A DNA stretch of 39,428 nucleotides. Source: Deltaproteobacteria bacterium (GTDB lineage Bacteria; Myxococcota_A; Polyangia; Polyangiales; Polyangiaceae). A program made the position numbers and the translations under genes. Below, piece by piece: positions 9,405 to 36,178 of the stretch (positions within the stretch are counted from its first letter, which is position 1; each line of letters begins with the position of its first letter). The stretch covers positions 1 to 39,428 of the forward strand of contig VGRJ01000036.1 in NCBI GenBank assembly GCA_016875405.1, in the 5' to 3' direction. The notes beneath the pieces are model-generated. The model was not told where the DNA came from, ran no database searches, and worked only from the letters and a program-made list of their open reading frames with translations.

Positions 9405-10349
9405 ATGGTCCGCACTCCCCTAGCCGCCCTCGCGCTGGTCGCACTCTCGCCCTTCGCGGCGCAGGGCTCCGAGCGTAGGCCTGGCATCGATGAGGAGGGG
9501 CCGCCTCCGTCGCCGGGGCTCTCGCACGCCGGCCTCGCCGTCGACGTCGATCACACCATCGCATCGGCCGCGCCGACCGATCTCGGCACGAGCTCGCCGG
9601 TCGGCTCGGAGCGCGCCTACGCCCACTCCGTACGCCTGGCGATCGAGTGGGCGGTCGCCGACCGCCGCTGGTTCCTCGGCGTCGCGAGCGAGGCGGGCGC
9701 CGCCGCCGTCCCGCCCGGCACCGAGCCGTCGAGCGGGGCGCGCGCGGCCGTGTTCGGCAACCCGGAGGTGTGGGCGCGCGCGCTGTGGACGAGCCGCGTC
9801 GGGCTGGCCGCCGGAGGCGGGCTCGGCGCCGTCCTGCCGCTGCCACGCTCGTTCGACGCCGACGAGGCCTCCGCGGTCCGCGCGATCCGCGTCGTACGAC
9901 CGTGGGCCGATCCGGCCTACCAGGACCTGGCACTGACGCTCCGCCCGTTTCTTGACATGCGTCATGTCGCGGGTCCGGTAAACCTCCAGCTGCGCCAGGG
10001 GCTCGACGTCACGGCGCGGCTCGGCGGGCTCGATGCCGGCGACAACCGGCTCGACCTCGCCGCGCGCACCAGCATTTACGCGGGCGTGCGAGTCGCGCGG
10101 CCGCTGATGCTCGGCCTCGAGCTGCACGAGGTCTACCAGCTGACCGGAGACGTCGCGACCCCGACCTGCCCGCCACCCTGCGACCGCCTGCGAGTCCAGT
10201 TCACCCTGGCGCCGAGCGTGCGCCTCGTGTTTCGCCACGTGACCCCGACGGTGAGCCTGCTCCTGCCGCTCTCGACGCCGCTCCGCGCCGACGTCGCGTC
10301 GTACGTCGCCGCGCGCATCCACCTCGGCGCGCGCGTCCCGCTGCCCTGA
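9405..10349 (+). CDS. Exported, predicted outer-membrane beta-barrel protein, unknown function
   Basis: I do not recognise a named family. The 314-aa product has a Sec signal peptide (MVRTPLAALALVALSPFAAQ), a proline-rich linker, and then alternating hydrophobic/polar strands rich in Gly, Arg and Leu (for example LRQGLDVTARL, RTSIYAGVRVARPLMLGLELHEVYQL, VRLVFRHVTPTVSLLLPL). That is the pattern of an outer-membrane beta-barrel of roughly 10-12 strands. One Cys pair, CPPPC, lies in a predicted loop near residue 260. The gene follows rseP by 7 nt and is probably the last gene of the operon. Its neighbour on the other strand ends 30 bp away. Confidence 0.75.
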   Translation: MVRTPLAALALVALSPFAAQGSERRPGIDEEGPPPSPGLSHAGLAVDVDHTIASAAPTDLGTSSPVGSERAYAHSVRLAIEWAVADRRWFLGVASEAGAAAVPPGTEPSSGARAAVFGNPEVWARALWTSRVGLAAGGGLGAVLPLPRSFDADEASAVRAIRVVRPWADPAYQDLALTLRPFLDMRHVAGPVNLQLRQGLDVTARLGGLDAGDNRLDLAARTSIYAGVRVARPLMLGLELHEVYQLTGDVATPTCPPPCDRLRVQFTLAPSVRLVFRHVTPTVSLLLPLSTPLRADVASYVAARIHLGARVPLP

Positions 10350-10379
10350 CCGTGGACCGGCCGAGTCCAGCGTCGTCGC

Positions 10380-26781: not shown

Positions 26782-28299
26782 ATGTTGAGTATCGACGTCC
26801 TCGAAGCTCCGGTCTACGCCCTCGAGGTCGTGTCGCAAGCTCTAGACCGAGGGCCGCTTCGCCCAGTCGCCGCGGCGGCCGTCGCGCCCCCCGAGCGCTG
26901 CGAGGCGTGCCTCGAGGCGGTGCCGCCGTCGGCGCGGATCTGCCCCGAGTGCGGCGAGCCGCTCGTCTCGGAGGCGCGGCGCAGCACCGACGAGCGGGGC
27001 GCCGTCCGACGCTGGCTCGGGGCCCACTGGCGGCCCGTGGTGACGCTGTCGGCCATCGGAGGCTTGCTCGGGTTCGGGGTGGCGCTCCGTTACCTCGCCC
27101 CGGAGGCGTTTCGTCCCGCGCGCGCGCCGAGCACCCAGAGCGTCCGGCTGATGGAGCCGACCTGCGACGTCCCCTGCTGGAACGGGGAGGCCTGCGAGCT
27201 CGGGGCGTGCGTGTTCCGCCCCTCGAACGAGGTCGGACACTTGCCCACCCGCCCGACGGTGGCCGGCCCGTTCGCCCTCCCAAGCGACATGGTCGACGTG
27301 CTCCCGCTCGACGGGGAGCGCTATGTCGTCTCGTTTCTCGCGGGCGTCCAGGTGACGAACGCGCGGAGCGGCGAGGTGTTGAGCCTCGTGAGCGACGCTC
27401 CCCAAGCTCAGCACCTGTTCCGCGTCGGCGAGAGCGTTTACGCCACCGCGCCGGAGCGCATCCACGTCCTCGACGCAGCCACCACGAACGTTCAGAAGAC
27501 CATCGAGGTCGGGCGCCCGGTCGGCGATCTCGCCCTCGGCGCCGCCGGCGCACGGGTGCTCGTGTCGCTGCCGACGGCGCGCGCGGTCGCGGTCATCGCG
27601 ACCGACTACCACGCGGAGGTGGCGCGCTTCACATTTGACGAAGATCAAGTTGGAGCGGTCGCGGTAGACGACGCTGGCAAGCGCGCGATGACCAGCAACG
27701 GCCAGGTGCCGCTCGCGGGGCTCAAGCCCGCAAGCCACGCGCTTCAGTTCGGCGCGATGTACGCCTTCGACCCGGGGCGCCTGCCGTCGCAGCAAGATCG
27801 CGTTCGAACCGGCATGGGCGGAAACCCGGTCGATCTGCTCATGGCACCGAACGCGCAAACGAGCTTCGTGGTGCTCCGAGAGCGCGACGAGGTGATCCCG
27901 CTCGAGCACCCCCCGAACGAACCGGTGCGCCAGCTGCCTTCGATCGCCACCTGCGCCCAGCCCGAGCAGATCGAGCTCGTGCGCGACGGGCGACGCGCGC
28001 TCGTGCGCTGCAACGCGGGCCACGCCGTCGAGGTGGTTGACCTCGCGCGACGGATCTCGATCCGGAGGCTCGACCTCAACGCGCGCGTGAGCGACCTGCT
28101 CGTGACCCCCGACTCGAAGCAAGCCCTCCTGGCGCTGCCGCGCGACGGCCAGGGAGCCCTCGGGCTCATCGACCTCACGACGTACGAGGTGACGCTCGTG
28201 GAGCTCGGCGCCGAGGCGCATCGCGTCCGCCTCGCGCCCGACGGCAAGACCGCGGTCGCCATCTCCGACCGCAACAAAACCGCGTGGGTGCTTCGATGA
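26782..28299 (+). CDS. Zinc-ribbon / single-TM / beta-propeller protein (copy 1)
   Basis: This 505-aa protein has an N-terminal zinc ribbon with C40-x2-C43 and C54-x2-C57 (CEAC, CPEC) and a membrane segment at about residues 84-105 (VVTLSAIGGLLGFGVALRYL). A short four-Cys module follows (CDVPC then CELGAC, residues 128-143), probably disulfide-bonded outside. The remainder is a YVTN/WD-like beta-propeller of about 350 residues (DVLPLDGERYVVSFLAG, VLDAATTNVQKTIEVGRP, LRLAPDGKTAV-type blades). The ribbon should be cytoplasmic and the propeller periplasmic. No catalytic residues are visible; a sensor or scaffold role is a guess. The ATG at 26782 has no strong SD. The next gene is a paralogue, coupled by ATGA. 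Confidence 0.75.
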   Translation: MLSIDVLEAPVYALEVVSQALDRGPLRPVAAAAVAPPERCEACLEAVPPSARICPECGEPLVSEARRSTDERGAVRRWLGAHWRPVVTLSAIGGLLGFGVALRYLAPEAFRPARAPSTQSVRLMEPTCDVPCWNGEACELGACVFRPSNEVGHLPTRPTVAGPFALPSDMVDVLPLDGERYVVSFLAGVQVTNARSGEVLSLVSDAPQAQHLFRVGESVYATAPERIHVLDAATTNVQKTIEVGRPVGDLALGAAGARVLVSLPTARAVAVIATDYHAEVARFTFDEDQVGAVAVDDAGKRAMTSNGQVPLAGLKPASHALQFGAMYAFDPGRLPSQQDRVRTGMGGNPVDLLMAPNAQTSFVVLRERDEVIPLEHPPNEPVRQLPSIATCAQPEQIELVRDGRRALVRCNAGHAVEVVDLARRISIRRLDLNARVSDLLVTPDSKQALLALPRDGQGALGLIDLTTYEVTLVELGAEAHRVRLAPDGKTAVAISDRNKTAWVLR

Positions 28300-29714
28300 C
28301 GACGGACGACGAGCGCCCCTCGGACGGCGACCCGCGCGCACCTTGCCCTCACTGCGGGACCGCGATCCTCGTCGGCGCACGCAAGTGCCGCGGCTGCAAG
28401 CGCTGGCTCGACGGACGACCCTCGGCGCGCGCTCGCTGGACAAAGCTCGGCCTCGTCGGCGCCGCGGCGATCCTGGTCGCGTCGGTCTCGCTCGCCCGAC
28501 GACCGACGACCGTCGGCGAGGCGCCGCCGCTCACGCCGATGGCACGCCCCGGCAGCGCCGAGCCTGGCGCGAACGGTGAACCCTCCCCCGCGGCCATCGG
28601 GCCCACCCCGGAGCCGAGCGCGAGCTCCGCGGTTCCGTCGGCGCCCGAGCCCGACAGTCCGTGGCGCTCGCGGACCCTGCGCGTCGACGTCCACCCGCTC
28701 GACGCAGTCTTCTCGGACGACGGCGCGACCCTCTACGTGAGCGGCGACGACGCGAAGATCCGCGCGTACGACGTCGCGACGGGCAAGGTCGTTCGCGTCG
28801 CCTCGGCGCCGGCCCAGGGCGACCGGCTCGAGCTCCTGCACGGGCGCTACCTCGCGGTGATCCGCCGCAAGGACGCCGCGCACATCCCGCTCCTCGACGT
28901 GCAGACCTGGGACCGCGACGCCACGCTGCTGCAGGTCGGCGAGGGGCCTGCCGACGTGCTCGCGCTGCCCGACGGCAAGACGCTTCTCACTGCGTCGAGC
29001 GAGGCGCGGCGGATCGGCTGGCACGACGCAGCGTCGGGGCGCCTGCTCGCCGAGCTGCGCCTGTCGCACGAGCCCGACCGACTGTTCTTCATGCAATCGA
29101 AGGGGCGCACGTTCGTGGGCGCGCTCGGCCTCTCGGCACAGAGCGATACGCCCTCGCACGCCTCGCTCGAGCTCTTCGACCCGCTCGAGCGACCGTTCGG
29201 GGCGACGCGGCGCACCGTCTCGCTCGGGCGCGATCCTCGCGGCGGGAGCGTGTCGCTCGACGGGAGGCACCTGCTCACCGCGGACCGCCTCTCGAACAGC
29301 GCGTGGCTCTTCAACGTCGAAGGGAGCCAGCGTCCGGTGTCGATCCCCGTCGGCCAGGGCCCGATCGCGGCCTTCGTGCTCGGGGGCAAGTACGGGCTCA
29401 CGCTCGACGGTCAGGCGCGAACCGCGACGGTGATCGACCTCGCCGCCGCGCGGCGTACGACGACGTTGCTCTTGCCCGAGAGCCCGAGCCGAGGCACCAC
29501 CGACGCGGCAGGGACGTGGCTGGCCGTCGCCCTTGGGGGAACCACCTGGCCTCCGAAGGGCCGGGGCGTCGTCCTAATCGCGGGCGATCCGCCGCAGATC
29601 GTCGCTCGGCACGATACCGGGGCTGGAGCCGGAGCCGTCTCGGCGTCGCGAGACGGTCGCCGCGTGGTCGTGTCCTGTTACGCCGATCGAGAGCTGACGC
29701 TCCTCGAGCGCTGA
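28296..29714 (+). CDS. Zinc-ribbon / single-TM / beta-propeller protein (copy 2)
   Basis: This 472-aa paralogue of the preceding product has a zinc ribbon C17-x2-C20, C31-x2-C34 (CPHC, CRGC) with exactly the same x10 spacing. A membrane helix at about 51-66 (LGLVGAAAILVASVSL) follows, then a Pro/Ser/Ala-rich tether to about residue 125. A beta-propeller comes next (LDAVFSDDGATLYVSGDDAKIRAYDVATGKVV, ADVLALPDGKTLLTASSEARRIGWHD, GGSVSLDGRHLLTADRLSNSAWLF). It lacks the external four-Cys module of copy 1. The ATG overlaps the stop of copy 1. The gene converges on the LNPQPLPP lipoprotein pair, whose last stop lies 8 bp away. Confidence 0.75.
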   Translation: MTTDDERPSDGDPRAPCPHCGTAILVGARKCRGCKRWLDGRPSARARWTKLGLVGAAAILVASVSLARRPTTVGEAPPLTPMARPGSAEPGANGEPSPAAIGPTPEPSASSAVPSAPEPDSPWRSRTLRVDVHPLDAVFSDDGATLYVSGDDAKIRAYDVATGKVVRVASAPAQGDRLELLHGRYLAVIRRKDAAHIPLLDVQTWDRDATLLQVGEGPADVLALPDGKTLLTASSEARRIGWHDAASGRLLAELRLSHEPDRLFFMQSKGRTFVGALGLSAQSDTPSHASLELFDPLERPFGATRRTVSLGRDPRGGSVSLDGRHLLTADRLSNSAWLFNVEGSQRPVSIPVGQGPIAAFVLGGKYGLTLDGQARTATVIDLAAARRTTTLLLPESPSRGTTDAAGTWLAVALGGTTWPPKGRGVVLIAGDPPQIVARHDTGAGAGAVSASRDGRRVVVSCYADRELTLLER

Positions 29715-29722
29715 CCCGCGGG

Positions 29723-29974
29723 TCACCTGTCGCAGCCGCCGCTACCGCCGCTACCGCCGCTACCGCCGCTACCGCCGGCACCGCCGGCACCGCCGCTGCC
29801 TGGCGCGCCGCCGCCCTTGCCACAGGGACCTCCGGTTTTGTCTAACTCCTCGGGGTCCCCCGAGGTCGAGGTGTCGTCGGGGTCCGGTGGCAGAGGCTGC
29901 GGGTTCAAGCTGCAGGCGGCGAGACCCTGAAGCGACAGCGCCGCGACGAGCACGACTCGAGGCAACGGGTTCAT
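29723..29974 (-). CDS. Small Gly-rich lipoprotein with CSLNPQPLPPD motif (copy B)
   Basis: This 83-aa lipoprotein has signal MNPLPRVVLVAALSLQGLAAC (lipobox Cys21) followed at once by SLNPQPLPPDPDD, an acidic/Thr linker, and a tail of GGS/GGA triplets ending GGCDR. The mature protein should be lipid-anchored with a flexible Gly-rich extension. The start ATG overlaps the stop of the upstream paralogue, and AGGAGG lies only 3 nt before it. Two Cys residues (in GGPCGKGG and at the end, GGCDR) could cross-link. The triplets are encoded by 9-bp DNA repeats (29736-29798), so the tail may vary in length. Function unknown. Confidence 0.75.
   Translation of the reverse strand: MNPLPRVVLVAALSLQGLAACSLNPQPLPPDPDDTSTSGDPEELDKTGGPCGKGGGAPGSGGAGGAGGSGGSGGSGGSGGCDR
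29736..29798. repeat. 9-bp tandem repeat encoding the Gly-rich tail
   Basis: Seven head-to-tail 9-mers: four CCGCCGCTA, two CCGCCGGCA and one CCGCCGCTG (plus strand). On the minus strand they encode GGS or GGA triplets of the lipoprotein tail. Units are in frame, so copy-number change alters tail length without shifting the frame. Confidence 0.85.
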
Positions 29975-30219
29975 GAGCCTCCTTGGCCTCCAGCCCCGCC
30001 GGCACCGCCTGCGCCGCCAGTATCGCTGGCACCGCCACCACCGTGCGCGCCCGCGGAGCTTCCGGTCGGACCACTGGTCTCACTGACGTTGTCAGTCTCG
30101 CCACTGGTGGATCCCGCTTCGTCCGGCGGGAGCGGCTGCGGGTTCAGGCTGCAGGCGACGGACATCGCCGCGAGAGCGACACCGAACCCCAGGCGACGAA
30201 ACGACCTTGCAAGCTTCAT
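29971..30219 (-). CDS. Small Gly-rich lipoprotein with CSLNPQPLPPD motif (copy A)
   Basis: This 82-aa lipoprotein is paralogous to the next gene. Signal MKLARSFRRLGFGVALAAMSVAC is followed by SLNPQPLPPDEAG, a Thr/Ser/Asn/Glu linker, and a Gly-rich tail (HGGGGASDTGGAGGAGGAG) ending QGGS. The 11-residue motif CSLNPQPLPPD is identical in both copies, although linker and tail differ, which implies strong selection on the motif. GGAGGGAGG lies 9 nt before the ATG. The frame remains open upstream to 30456, but those codons are not coding-like. It is first in a two-gene operon with ATGA overlap. Confidence 0.78.
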   Translation of the reverse strand: MKLARSFRRLGFGVALAAMSVACSLNPQPLPPDEAGSTSGETDNVSETSGPTGSSAGAHGGGGASDTGGAGGAGGAGGQGGS

Positions 30220-30287
30220 GAGACCCGACCTCCCTCCGCGAGCCCGACGGGATCGAGCCCGGAACCACGCAGCGGTACGAGCATGCG

Positions 30288-30820: not shown

Positions 30821-32536
30821 TCAACCCGCGAACCAACCGCGAGCCTCGAGCGCCTCGACGATCGTCGAGACCCGGTGCGAGAGCAGGTGCTCCTCGAGCA
30901 CGAGGCGGCGACCTCGCTCCGCGGCGGCGCGCGCGGCGGCCGGGTGTTCGGCGAGCTCGCGCACGCGCAGGACGAGCTCGGCGTCATCGCGGTAGGTGAA
31001 GAGATGCTCGCCGTCGCGGAACATCTCCAGGATTTGCGCGCTCGGCTCGGTGAGCAGGACGCCCCCACAGGCGAGGATGTCGAAGACGCGCATGGTGGCG
31101 ATGTCGCGCTGGTAGAGCCGCGGCACGTCGAGGTTCACGGCGCTCGCCGAATAGATCGCGCTGAGCGGCTCGCCGTGCGCGGCGCGACCTCGATACGCAG
31201 GGCCGAGCGCCTCCCATCCCTCATCGCCCCAGACGTGAATCCCTTCGTCGAGGAGCGCGCGCACGCGCCGCATCCTGAGGTGGTGCGAGAGCGTCCCGTT
31301 GATGCGATCGACGAGCTCGATCGGGTCGAACCTCGGCAGCCCGCGAGCGAGCCAGTCCGGGAGGCTCGCCGGCGCGACCTCGAGTCCGCGGTAGTCGAGC
31401 GGCGCTCCGCGAAGGTGAAACTCTTCGGCGATCCACGCGAGCGTCCGCTCGACGAGCGCCGTGTCGGCGCCGTGCTCACGGAGCCGAGCGACGAGGCCCT
31501 CCCGCTCGACCGCGAGCGAGACGCCGGCGAAGCTTACGCGCGCGCGATGGGCCGTGAGCGTCGCCGGATCGGAGACGACGTGGCGACGGCGCCCCGCCGC
31601 GAGCGGGAGGAAGCCGACCGACGCGAGGCCGACGCGCGAGAGCTCGTCGACGAGATCGCGGCGGTGCGCGAAGGCGACGCAGCGCGCGACGTCGGTGCCG
31701 GGCACCACGGCGAGCCTCGACGTCGGCAGCGGATCGATCGTCCAGGACGCGTAGCCGACGCCCGAGCGCGTCGCGAGGAGCGCGAGCTCGGGGCTCCAGT
31801 TCATCGAGAAGACGGCGTGCGGCCTTACCGTGGCGACAAGCTCACGGAACGAGTCCACGCGCAGCGAGGAGGCCTCGACGACGCGAACGGCGAAGCCGCG
31901 CTCCTCGAGCTCGTCGACGATGTCTCCGAGCAGGAGCTTGTACGCGATCGCCAGCACGCGCCCGCGCTCGCCGCGACGCCGGCGCAGAAACCGGAGGTGG
32001 CGCACGCGATCGGCGTAGGTTTCGGCGAGCGACGGCAGCGCCAGGGTGAACGCCCCGCGCGGCACGAGAGGCAACACCTCGGCGTCGGACTCGTCGGCGA
32101 CGAGCAGGGTGAGCCGACCTTCCGCGAGCGCGTCACGGAGATCGAAGAGCGCGAGCATCGTGCGGAGGAGGCGTCGATCCGGCTCGACGAGCACGACCGG
32201 GCGCGCAGGGCTCTCCGACAAGAGGCGCGCGGGGAGGTAGCCGAGACCGCCCCCGACGACCTCGACCGCTGGCGCCGTCGAGGGGACGAGGCGCGCGAGC
32301 CGCTCGGCCTCGACGGACGGCTCGTAGGCCGAGTGGAGCCAGCGCTCGACGCCGCCGAGGAGGTGCTTGGCGGTCGGCTCGCCGCTCCGCGCGAGGGACA
32401 CGGCGATGGGCGAGGCCTCTGCGAGCTCGCGAGCGAGGGCAGGCTGTCGCCGCGCGAGCGCGTCGAGGTTTGCGCGGAGCCTCGCCTTGGCGAGGACCGA
32501 GTCGAGATCGTTGCGGGGGGCCGACGGAGGTTGCAC
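30821..32536 (-). CDS. CgeB-like glycosyltransferase with an N-terminal Rossmann-like domain
   Basis: In this 571-aa protein the C-terminal half matches the CgeB/spore-maturation type glycosyltransferases (DUF3880 plus Glyco_trans_1_2). LRVDSFRELVATVRPHAVFSMNWS and GVGYASWTIDPLP appear in the middle, and NLDVPRLYQRDIATMRVFDILACGGVLLTE, ILEMFRDGEHLFTYRDDAEL and the usual RGRRLVLEEHLLSHRV at the end. Residues about 55-150 form a separate alpha/beta unit (VEVVGGGLGYLPARLLSESPARPVVLVEPD) resembling the N-terminal domain of Maf-type flagellin glycosyltransferases. It is probably cytoplasmic, adding sugars to a protein or surface polymer. The start is GTG at 32536. It is divergent from yggS. Confidence 0.78.
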   Translation of the reverse strand: MQPPSAPRNDLDSVLAKARLRANLDALARRQPALARELAEASPIAVSLARSGEPTAKHLLGGVERWLHSAYEPSVEAERLARLVPSTAPAVEVVGGGLGYLPARLLSESPARPVVLVEPDRRLLRTMLALFDLRDALAEGRLTLLVADESDAEVLPLVPRGAFTLALPSLAETYADRVRHLRFLRRRRGERGRVLAIAYKLLLGDIVDELEERGFAVRVVEASSLRVDSFRELVATVRPHAVFSMNWSPELALLATRSGVGYASWTIDPLPTSRLAVVPGTDVARCVAFAHRRDLVDELSRVGLASVGFLPLAAGRRRHVVSDPATLTAHRARVSFAGVSLAVEREGLVARLREHGADTALVERTLAWIAEEFHLRGAPLDYRGLEVAPASLPDWLARGLPRFDPIELVDRINGTLSHHLRMRRVRALLDEGIHVWGDEGWEALGPAYRGRAAHGEPLSAIYSASAVNLDVPRLYQRDIATMRVFDILACGGVLLTEPSAQILEMFRDGEHLFTYRDDAELVLRVRELAEHPAAARAAAERGRRLVLEEHLLSHRVSTIVEALEARGWFAG

Positions 32537-33292: not shown

Positions 33293-36178
33293 CTACGGGC
33301 GTAGGACCTCACGCCGCACGCGCACCCGGTAGCGACCGACGTTCGGTCGGTAAAGGTCGAGCACCATCCCGTGCGAGAGCGGCCCGTCGAGGCGCGCGCG
33401 CGCGTCCGCGAGCGACTCCGTCGGATGCCCGTCGATGGCGAGGAGCTCGTCCCCGGCGAAGAGCCCAGCGCGCAGGGCCTCGCCGCCGTACGGCACGTGC
33501 TCGAGCAGGAGCGCGATTCCGCGGCGAGCCTCGTGCTCGCTCAAGGTGACGGCGAGCGTCCCCGGGGCGCTCGAGGCCGTCGACGTATCGGTGGCGAGCG
33601 CGATCCGAAGGTCGCGCACCGCATCGCCCCCTCGCACCTCGACTCCCGCGACCGAGCCGCGTCCCGAGCCGGAGCGAAAGGCCTCGATCGACGCCGCGCC
33701 AGGCTCGAGGTCCTCGAGCACGAACCGCCCTTGATCGTCGGTCAGCGTCATCCCGGGCGGCAGCGGCCCTGCCGGCAGGTAGGTCGGCACGCGGCCGAGA
33801 GCGACCCGCGCCCCCGCGACCGCGGCGCCGCGCTCGTCGACCACGAGCCCCTCGACCCGGCCGCCGCGCGCGAGCTCGATCGTCGGAAGGACGACGCGCC
33901 CTCGCGAGTCGGCCTCGAGGGTGACGTCGCGCTCATCGAAGGCGTAGCCGCGCGCGGTGACGAGCAGGCGCGCCGGTCCGGCCGCGAGCTCCCCGATGCG
34001 AAAGCGCCCGCCGCCGGACGTCTTCGCGTGCCGATCGCCCGCCGCCGTGACGAGCGTGAGCACGGCCCCGTCGAGCCAGCCGTCGCGCGACCGCACCTCG
34101 CCCTCGAGCGTAAGCTCCGGGTCGAGCGTCAGCGTGAGCTCGGCCGGCGCACGGTCGACCTCGCTGACGCGCGGCGCATACCCGCGGCGGCGCGCCACGA
34201 TGCGCAGCGGGAGCGCGCGCGCCCCGGCGAGCTCGAGCCTGCCGCCCTCGTCGGCGAACGCGGTGCGCGTGAGGGCGACGCTCGGATCCAGCGAGGCCGC
34301 CGAGACCTCCGCTCTGTCGATCGGGAATCCGCGCGCATCGACGACCCGCAGCTGAAGGGCGTCGCGTCGCTCGGGCAGCACGACGTCGACGACGCGCCGC
34401 CCCTCCGCCGGGACGTCGAGCTCGAGCCGCTCGACGATCGTCTCGGGCTCCTCGGGTCGGGCGACCGCGAGAACCACCTCGCTCGGGACCGCCGGGAAGG
34501 CGAAGGTCCCATCGTCGGCCGAGAAGGTGATGCGCTCCGTCGCGCCGTCGAGCGACAAGAGCTCGATGCGCGCCGCGGCGACCGCGCGACCGCTGCGATC
34601 GAGGACGCGCCCCTCGACCGCGCCGCCCCGCCGCATCACGAGCTCGAGCTCGCCGCGCTCTCCCGAGCGGAGCAGCACCGGCGCCGACAAACCGTCGACG
34701 AAGCGCGGGTGCCGCGCGAGGAGCTGAACGCGTCCAGGTGACACTGGGGCGAGCTCGAAGGTCCCGTCGCGACGCGTCGACCACGGCTCGAGGCCCGAAG
34801 GAGCGCGAGCGCCTAGCGCGAGCGACGGTCCGCTCGAGAGCGGCACGCCCGGCACCACCGGCATGACGCCGAGCTCACCGCGGGGGACGAGCGGCGTCGG
34901 CCCCGGCGCCGCGAGGGCGAGGTGATCGTCGCGAAGCCCGAGCAAGAGCGCGCTCTCCGCGATCGGCATACCGTCCTCGGCAACGCCGACGACCTCGAGC
35001 GTGGCGCCGTCGACGGGGTAGCCGCGCTCATCGACCACGCGACCGGTGAGCCTCGCCGCGCGCGACAGCGCGATCCGCACGCGCGCGGAGGCCTGCTCGA
35101 CCAGGACGCCGCTCCGCGGCACGAAGCCGGAGGCCTGTGCCGAGGCGGTCGCGTCTCCGCCGACGATCGGCCCGAGTCGGACCAGCCCGTCGACGCCGGT
35201 CCTCCCGTAGATCGGGAACGACGAGAGGCCGCCCTCGACGAGCGCGACGTCCGCGCCCTCGACGGGTCGCGCAGGCTCCCCCTCGCCATCGCTCACGAAC
35301 ACCTCGACGAAGGTCCCGGCGACGAGGTGGAGCTCGATCTCGCGGGTCTCGCCAGGCTCGAGCAGGACGCCCTCGTGGACCTCGCTGACGGCCTTGTCGC
35401 GCGCGGCCCGGAGCTCGTAGAAGCCGCGTCCGAGCCCGGAAAATGCGGCCCTCCCGGTGTCGTCGGCGACCACGCGTCGCGCCGGCCAGAAGGTCGAGCC
35501 CGCGACGAGGACGCTCGCGTTGCCCGCAGGAGAGCCCGCCTCGTCGACGACGTGCACCACGAGCTCGGCCTCGCGGTCGAGCTTGACGAAGAGCGGCGAG
35601 GAGTCCGCGCCGAGGTCCTCGATCACCCGGCGGCCGAAGCCCGGCGCCACGATCTCGGCGGCATACGGCGCCGCACCGAGCGCGTCGAACGCCGCGAGCC
35701 CGGTCGCGTCGGTGTAGCTCGCGTGCGGGAGGGGGTCACCGCCGTGCAGAAAGACGGTCGCATTCCGCACCGGGCGCTGCGCGGCGTCGACCACCACGAG
35801 CTCGAAGGCTTCGGCCGGCGCGAGCTCGACCAGGACCTCCTCGCTCTCCGGGCCGACCTCGACGCGACGGCTCGTGCGCGCGCGACCGGGCGCCTCGACC
35901 ACGAGCCAGGCCCCGCCGCTCGGCGCGTCGTCGAGCCGCGCCTCGCCTTCGCGCGCGACCGCCTCGAGGACGCGCCTCCCCTCGTCGACGTAGAGCCGCA
36001 CCCGAGCCTCGGGCGCGACGCCCCCATCGACGGTGACCCGCACCGCCAGCGCGACGCGAGCGGCCAGCGGCGCGGGCGCGGCCACGCGCCGAGGAGCGAC
36101 GTCGGTGAGCTGCGCCGCAAGGAGCAGCCACACGAGCGCCGCGAGCCCGACGGTCAGGCGCTCGACCAGGCCGCGCAT
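33293..36178 (-). CDS. Large exported carboxypeptidase-regulatory-like repeat protein with C-terminal PDZ
   Basis: In this 961-aa protein an N-terminal signal or anchor helix ([20 protein letters not shown]) is followed by at least eight beta-sandwich repeats of the CarboxypepD_reg/SdrD-B type. Each shows the pattern G.V.D..G.PV..A.V ([66 protein letters not shown]) and then a D..GRF....L..G block ([15 protein letters not shown]). The last 70 residues form a PDZ domain ([33 protein letters not shown]). It is probably periplasmic or surface-exposed; the PDZ would bind peptide C-termini. No peptidase residues are visible. The LeuA-like gene ends 4 bp upstream, so they may share a transcript. 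Confidence 0.8.

Follow-up and report, generated by a model that had tools for sequence, protein, structure and literature searches.

In Myxococcus xanthus, a lysine at position +2 of a lipoprotein stands for the inner membrane and an alanine at +7 for the extracellular matrix, and what is reported there on the sorting of myxobacterial lipoproteins to the surface or the matrix rests on these few residues (PMC3222651). In Bacteroidota, the lipoprotein export signal (LES) is K-(D/E)2 or Q-A-(D/E)2 close behind the lipidated cysteine (PMC5080379). Myxobacteria also possess the MYXO-CTERM/myxosortase system, in which proteins reach the cell surface by way of a tripartite C-terminal tag that contains an invariant cysteine (PMC11980579).

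The window studied here, i.e., the whole stretch of 39,428 nucleotides that was analyzed, encodes twin small lipoproteins with a common peptide of the form C-x-[LFI]-N-P-Q-P-x-x-P, called the tag below. The LES is likewise a short peptide near the lipidated cysteine that decides the destination of a lipoprotein and is portable between proteins; yet the tag consists of other residues without the K-D/E core, is found in one to four genes per matching genome, and falls outside the LES definition (PMC5080379). As in M. xanthus, where cysteine-adjacent residues steer lipoproteins in a myxobacterium, the residues in question adjoin the cysteine, but the NPQP tag is longer and tolerates various residues at position +2 (S, T, G, D, V, A, and others). 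By the M. xanthus rules, the inner membrane would not hold the twins back, as the lysine at +2 occurs in 0 of 141 tag proteins with a one-residue gap, and the matrix alanine at +7 is replaced by proline in both twins (in the 141 proteins this proline results from the construction of the search) (PMC3222651). MYXO-CTERM is also a short cysteine-bearing peptide tag of myxobacteria, whereas the tag of the twins is N-terminal and they lack the C-terminal hydrophobic segment (PMC11980579). Judged by their sequences, the twins fit none of the three definitions.

The twin genes and their common peptide

Genes B and A lie in tandem on the reverse strand, with a 4-bp overlap (ATGA) in which the ATG of gene A covers the stop codon of gene B. 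The features of the region are:

29971..30219, reverse strand: gene B, first of the tandem, 82-aa small-lipoprotein precursor with the putative lipobox ...SVAC and the tail end GGAGGAGGQGGS
29723..29974, reverse strand: gene A, second of the tandem, 83-aa precursor with the putative lipobox ...LAAC and a tail of GGS/GGA triplets ending in GGCDR
30124..30153, reverse strand: gene B tag C-S-L-N-P-Q-P-L-P-P (pattern match G000:C36:30125-30153)
29885..29914, reverse strand: gene A tag C-S-L-N-P-Q-P-L-P-P (pattern match G000:C36:29886-29914)
29978..29984, reverse strand: Shine-Dalgarno-like stretch AAGGAGG of gene A, within the last codons of gene B (sequence inspection)
30229..30237, reverse strand: Shine-Dalgarno-like stretch GGAGGGAGG of gene B (sequence inspection)
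28284..29714, forward strand: convergent neighbor, 476 aa, weak, below-cut-off similarity to a beta-propeller and a zinc ribbon
30821..32536, reverse strand: upstream neighbor, 571 aa, glycosyltransferase-like by domain match (PF13524)

A preliminary description of this DNA reported two overlapping genes of 82–83 aa with 11 identical residues after the lipobox, a diverged linker and tail, and tails built of GGx triplets, all of which we could confirm. Both precursors have, on inspection, a predicted lipobox-type signal peptide with its cysteine, and both meet the tag consensus: the 11 of 11 identical residues (CSLNPQPLPPD) start at the lipobox cysteine (VAC followed by S in one, AAC followed by S in the other). 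Outside this stretch the signal peptide, the linker, and the GGx-rich tail have all diverged. The tag codons of the two genes, a pair found independently of any search pattern, differ by four synonymous and no non-synonymous changes, which indicates that the identity of the tag is maintained at the protein level.

LNPQPLPP occurs twice in the 5.02-Mb genome of the window (218 contigs), exclusively in genes A and B, and its reversed form is absent. Pfam returned no family for either twin at E values up to 10, a tblastn search of plasmids with gene B gave no match, and a literature search for NPQPLPP or NPQPEPP, in which few subscription journals were covered, found no mention of them; beyond these peptides the papers yielded nothing but analogues and background. 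The NCBIfam model SinM (NF037948) matched 4 of 20 relatives at 9.7–14 bits against a cut-off of 250, covering no more than model positions 1–76 of 387; SinM, VlpA, PA1414, MIGRI, and other NCBIfam matches were rejected, as their scores lay far under the cut-offs. Entericidins EcnA and EcnB are very small lipoproteins encoded by tandem genes. The twins are alike in this arrangement, but they lack any Pfam match and differ from EcnA/EcnB in sequence and size.

Spread, form, and constraint of the tag

Of 108 genomes from the same family, 24 have exact LNPQPLPP and 33 have [LIVMF]NPQP[LIVMF]PP (64 matches), both with reversed controls of 0. A search for the motif next to lipobox cysteines elsewhere had been proposed in the preliminary description, and its outcome was uniform: all 64 matches in the 33 genomes stand behind a cysteine, from which a single residue separates the motif in 50 of them. 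In 63 of the 64 the cysteine is preceded by a start codon and a hydrophobic stretch; the remaining gene, in G013, is truncated. The genes are arranged in tandem in 25 of the 33 genomes. None of the 75 other genomes of the order matched this pattern. In a sample of the class LNPQPLPP was present in 23 of 289 genomes, every one in the family (reversed control 1), and in a sample of the phylum in 11 of 377, namely nine of the family and two others with non-lipoproteins (reversed control 2). When a genome-contig collection was scanned, C-x-LNPQPLPP was found in 26 stretches, one contig contributing two. The 23 from records with Myxococcales, Polyangiaceae, Labilithrix, Sorangium, or 'delta proteobacterium' in the title all follow a hydrophobic stretch, while the three from other bacteria are non-lipoproteins.

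The position at the lipobox is thus conserved, but LNPQPLPP as the conserved unit, as it had been presented, proved too narrow. With C-x-[FLIMV]-N-P-Q-P-x-x-P, 77 of 102 family genomes matched vs. 2 of 75 from the rest of the order; since the reversed controls were 2 and 2, the pattern outside the family is at control level. In a class sample the same search gave 12 of 14 family genomes vs. 1 of 120 others (reversed controls 0 and 2), and the sole non-family match (L292) is not a lipoprotein. No match was obtained in 25 of the 102 family genomes; matching genomes have one to four tag genes. We conclude from these sequences that the functional core is probably C-x-[LFI]-N-P-Q-P-x-x-P, with LNPQPLPP as one version.

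We collected 160 distinct proteins by pattern, one of them the non-family L245, so that the positions fixed by the pattern are uninformative for conservation; the family matches G026:C187, G043:C6, G050, G051, G088, and G103 were left out of the reading of sequences. One residue separates the cysteine from the motif in 141 of the 160, but the spacing ranges from 0 to 14 residues and the register with the lipid is therefore not strict. Within the 141, N is retained in 137 and Q in 139, where the pattern allowed N/D/Q and Q/H/R, respectively. Immediately after the motif conservation drops to about 1–1.6 bits. The tails, those of domain-bearing proteins included, consist of 31% G, 17% A, 10.5% D, and 10.4% S, with D+E at 14% vs. 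K+R at 2%. The glycine tail, for which the preliminary description had proposed a flexible or self-associating role, is not constant: depending on the genus, the low-complexity tails are rich in either G or D/A. An AlphaFold2 model of the gene B product predicts a signal-peptide helix at residues 3–25 and nothing structured beyond; a fold assignment for the twin was abandoned, as the model is confident for the signal helix alone.

The tag is also portable, as it heads larger lipoproteins: in G027 one protein combines the tag and a linker with DUF4397 (2e-16) and another with Lcl_C (1.9e-10), and longer Cys-rich tag proteins are present in G014, G015, G021, G022, and G023. By eye, a larger tag-bearing lipoprotein of G026 resembles the Lcl_C protein of G027.

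Next to each other, tag genes change their codons far more than their residues. In 57 tandem neighbor pairs, the eight motif codons showed 221 synonymous vs. 14 non-synonymous differences at 456 positions, the latter number being biased low because a pair was counted only if each of its genes fitted the search pattern; this pattern fixed three prolines and limited three further positions, which biases the conservation figures as well. Arrays of three to four genes contribute several pairs, and degenerate neighbors in G013, G029, G039, and G068 were set aside. The same octapeptide, rare variants included, stands in both neighbors in 48 of the 57 pairs. With one pair per genus (genus labels entered by hand), a mean of 25.8 of 29 were identical vs. 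3.3 after shuffling (2000 shuffles, maximum 9). The nine non-identical pairs differ by changes such as E/D, G/D, DL/EV, V/A, I/L, and one N/D. A start/stop overlap of 4 bp is available in 23 and of 1 bp in 8 of the 57 pairs, as counted by a script that favors starts giving such overlaps. In genus g37, the residues between cysteine and motif are more numerous in the first gene than in the second in six of eight pairs, indicating that the duplication there is older than the species and that the motif remained unchanged meanwhile. The matched variants fit the earlier proposal of a binding or sorting signal for a common partner, of which the partner, the binding, and the sorting are what we infer; they could also have arisen if single lineages duplicated the gene repeatedly and strong constraint then acted on the copies.

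A decayed twin pair was seen in G013 (L155, about 9850–10360), with CGLNPRPEDP in one gene and the other truncated shortly past CGLNPQPVPP.

Neighborhoods of the tag genes and possible roles of the tag

Tag genes occupy loci that are conserved across genera, where they are often tandem and overlapping and have mostly housekeeping neighbors. In the window the arrangement (locus B) comprises two propeller-like genes, the tag genes, the glycosyltransferase, and a 961-aa protein, and it is wholly or partly common to the four other genomes of the window's genus and to G052. Homologs of 28284..29714 and of 26782..28299 adjoin tag genes also in G093, G094, G095, and G052, and those of 30821..32536 in G094, G095, and G096. 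The 961-aa protein (33293–36178) has ten carboxypeptidase-regulatory-like stretches and a near-cut-off, PDZ-like match at its C-terminus.

Locus A, found in many genera, has genes for OmpA-domain, Ppx/GppA-like, and CarD-like proteins, which in some genomes are joined by those for NosL, a membrane protein, and an ABC ATPase; then come the tag genes, a convergent cNMP-binding protein, a GNAT protein, Rpe, and CinA. The Ppx/GppA, CarD, Rpe, and CinA identities are tentative assignments from sequence. A single copy of the cNMP gene was located in 86 of 108 genomes (E up to 1e-45). The stretch beyond it was read in 52 genomes (51 without an LNPQPLPP-type match, plus G005; G066 and G088 left out), and at least one broad-motif lipoprotein was present in 35 of them, with variants such as FNPQPEPP, FNPQPDPP, LNPQPEVP, LNPQPDLP, and FDPQPDPP. 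The other 17 stretches, several of them short, showed no pattern-fitting tag gene; among the 17, those of G039 (with LNPQSEPP), G029, and G068 have near-matching or degenerate versions of the motif. In G045, read separately, both twins have IQPQPLPP. In G026 and G027 (L264, L265, L285) the region past the cNMP gene showed no tag lipoprotein, but larger tag-bearing lipoproteins occur in both genomes. Genus g37 has a second, single-gene locus with neighbors presumably resembling, judged by their sequences, an RseP-type protease, an RsmB-type methyltransferase, and a dihydrolipoamide acyltransferase; as these are not suggestive, the locus was dropped as a clue to a partner.

For the role of the tag, we give roughly even weight to its being a short docking or sorting peptide behind the lipobox for a common envelope partner. 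The two small lipoproteins would be made as a translationally coupled pair, in which the N-terminal C-x-[LFI]-N-P-Q-P-x-x-P would be the sole conserved mature part and the tail behind it disordered and of low complexity. After lipidation and removal of the signal peptide, a stiff proline-rich segment would be left beside the membrane, to be gripped by a family-specific envelope partner. Such binding may hold both twins, and in some species the larger tagged lipoproteins, at a defined envelope site, with the tail as a tether or hydrophilic brush. We infer in this way an outer-membrane location, a partner, and an effect of routing. No partner gene was found among the neighbors of tag genes in the loci examined, and one to four tag genes per matching genome are few for a general sorting signal. 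A bolder version, which we put forward tentatively, regards the tag as the N-terminal lipoprotein address of this myxobacterial family, by which a dedicated, co-evolving receptor or exporter would route the disordered pair and a few domain-bearing lipoproteins to the cell surface or another envelope site; it would be LES-like but of independent origin. Under either version, a ten-residue tag, present in most of the family, with matched variants in neighbors and in front of different domains, would make a defined bait for the missing envelope receptor, and proteins that look like featureless filler may bear a strongly selected address.

Some features of the tag would suit a simple polyproline-II stalk that raises the tail off the membrane with no specific partner: its prolines vary least (in part because of how the search was built), the tails are of low complexity, and the spacing from the cysteine varies. 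A spacer, however, would need neither the retention of Asn and Gln nor the matching between neighbors at the first and sixth motif positions, and we consider it doubtful. Recognition sites, e.g., sortase-type signals, are typically short near-invariant motifs with a featureless remainder. This plan, in a fixed place, is also that of the tag, at which a protease or modifying enzyme might trim or decorate the N-terminus of the lipoprotein; but no enzyme gene common to the different loci examined was noticed, and such a processing or modification site seems unlikely.

The adjoining block of ABC ATPase, eight-helix membrane protein, and NosL lies next to the twins in many genomes, and the twins might be its dedicated substrate, with the transporter reading the tag. 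In 108 genomes, the membrane protein occurred with an LNPQPLPP-type tag in 21, alone in 6, and the tag alone in 12, with neither in 69. Against this, the single-contig genomes G083 and G084 have the twins in the same locus and the block gone, which led us to reject it as an obligatory partner. The search with the membrane protein gave no match in the window's genome, the broad tag is far more widespread (77 of 102 family genomes vs. 27 of 108 for the membrane protein), and the model of this protein resembles no PDB entry convincingly (best E 0.11). We therefore regard this role as very unlikely. Least credible of all is a functionless relic of a recent duplication: the twins within one genome are indeed alike in plan, yet the tag is spread through the family, stands next to the lipobox in relatives as well, and has undergone much synonymous and little amino-acid change.

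The membrane protein, of about 340 aa and helical, sits between the ABC ATPase and the NosL lipoprotein and has no Pfam match; its fold could not be assigned from the model. A representative (L077:11096-12133, alignment A2) has the cysteine motifs CSVxLD and CPFCLL.

LNPQPLPP outside the family

Non-family matches to the tag were read individually (L033, L034, L040, L042, L048, L292, and G293; G266 was left out). The first six were rejected as tag lipoproteins, as on reading they are not lipoproteins. G293, from another family of the order, holds a real lipoprotein with CAINPQPTPP (L245) and a non-repetitive mature part of approximately 200 aa, which may be due to chance or transfer.

The preliminary description also mentioned LNPQPLPP in other bacterial hypothetical proteins. 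Such proteins do exist: in 398 genomes from the phylum of a Phyllobacterium match (taken as Pseudomonadota; this genome entered the sample on account of its own match), the peptide pattern was present in 13 (reversed control 5), and viral contigs gave 16 matches in 15 contigs. None of the 13 and 16 matches is at a lipobox cysteine, and for this reason they look like unrelated uses of the peptide. Three of the Pseudomonadota proteins (L181, L182, and L183) have in common a VALNPQPLPP(G)H-like sequence with no lipobox and are perhaps the ones meant there; in these VALNPQPLPPGH-like hypothetical proteins LNPQPLPP is common with the twins, but it is internal. In one viral contig, an ORF (L165:1669-1745) has ALNPQPLPPEPPERW repeated twice.
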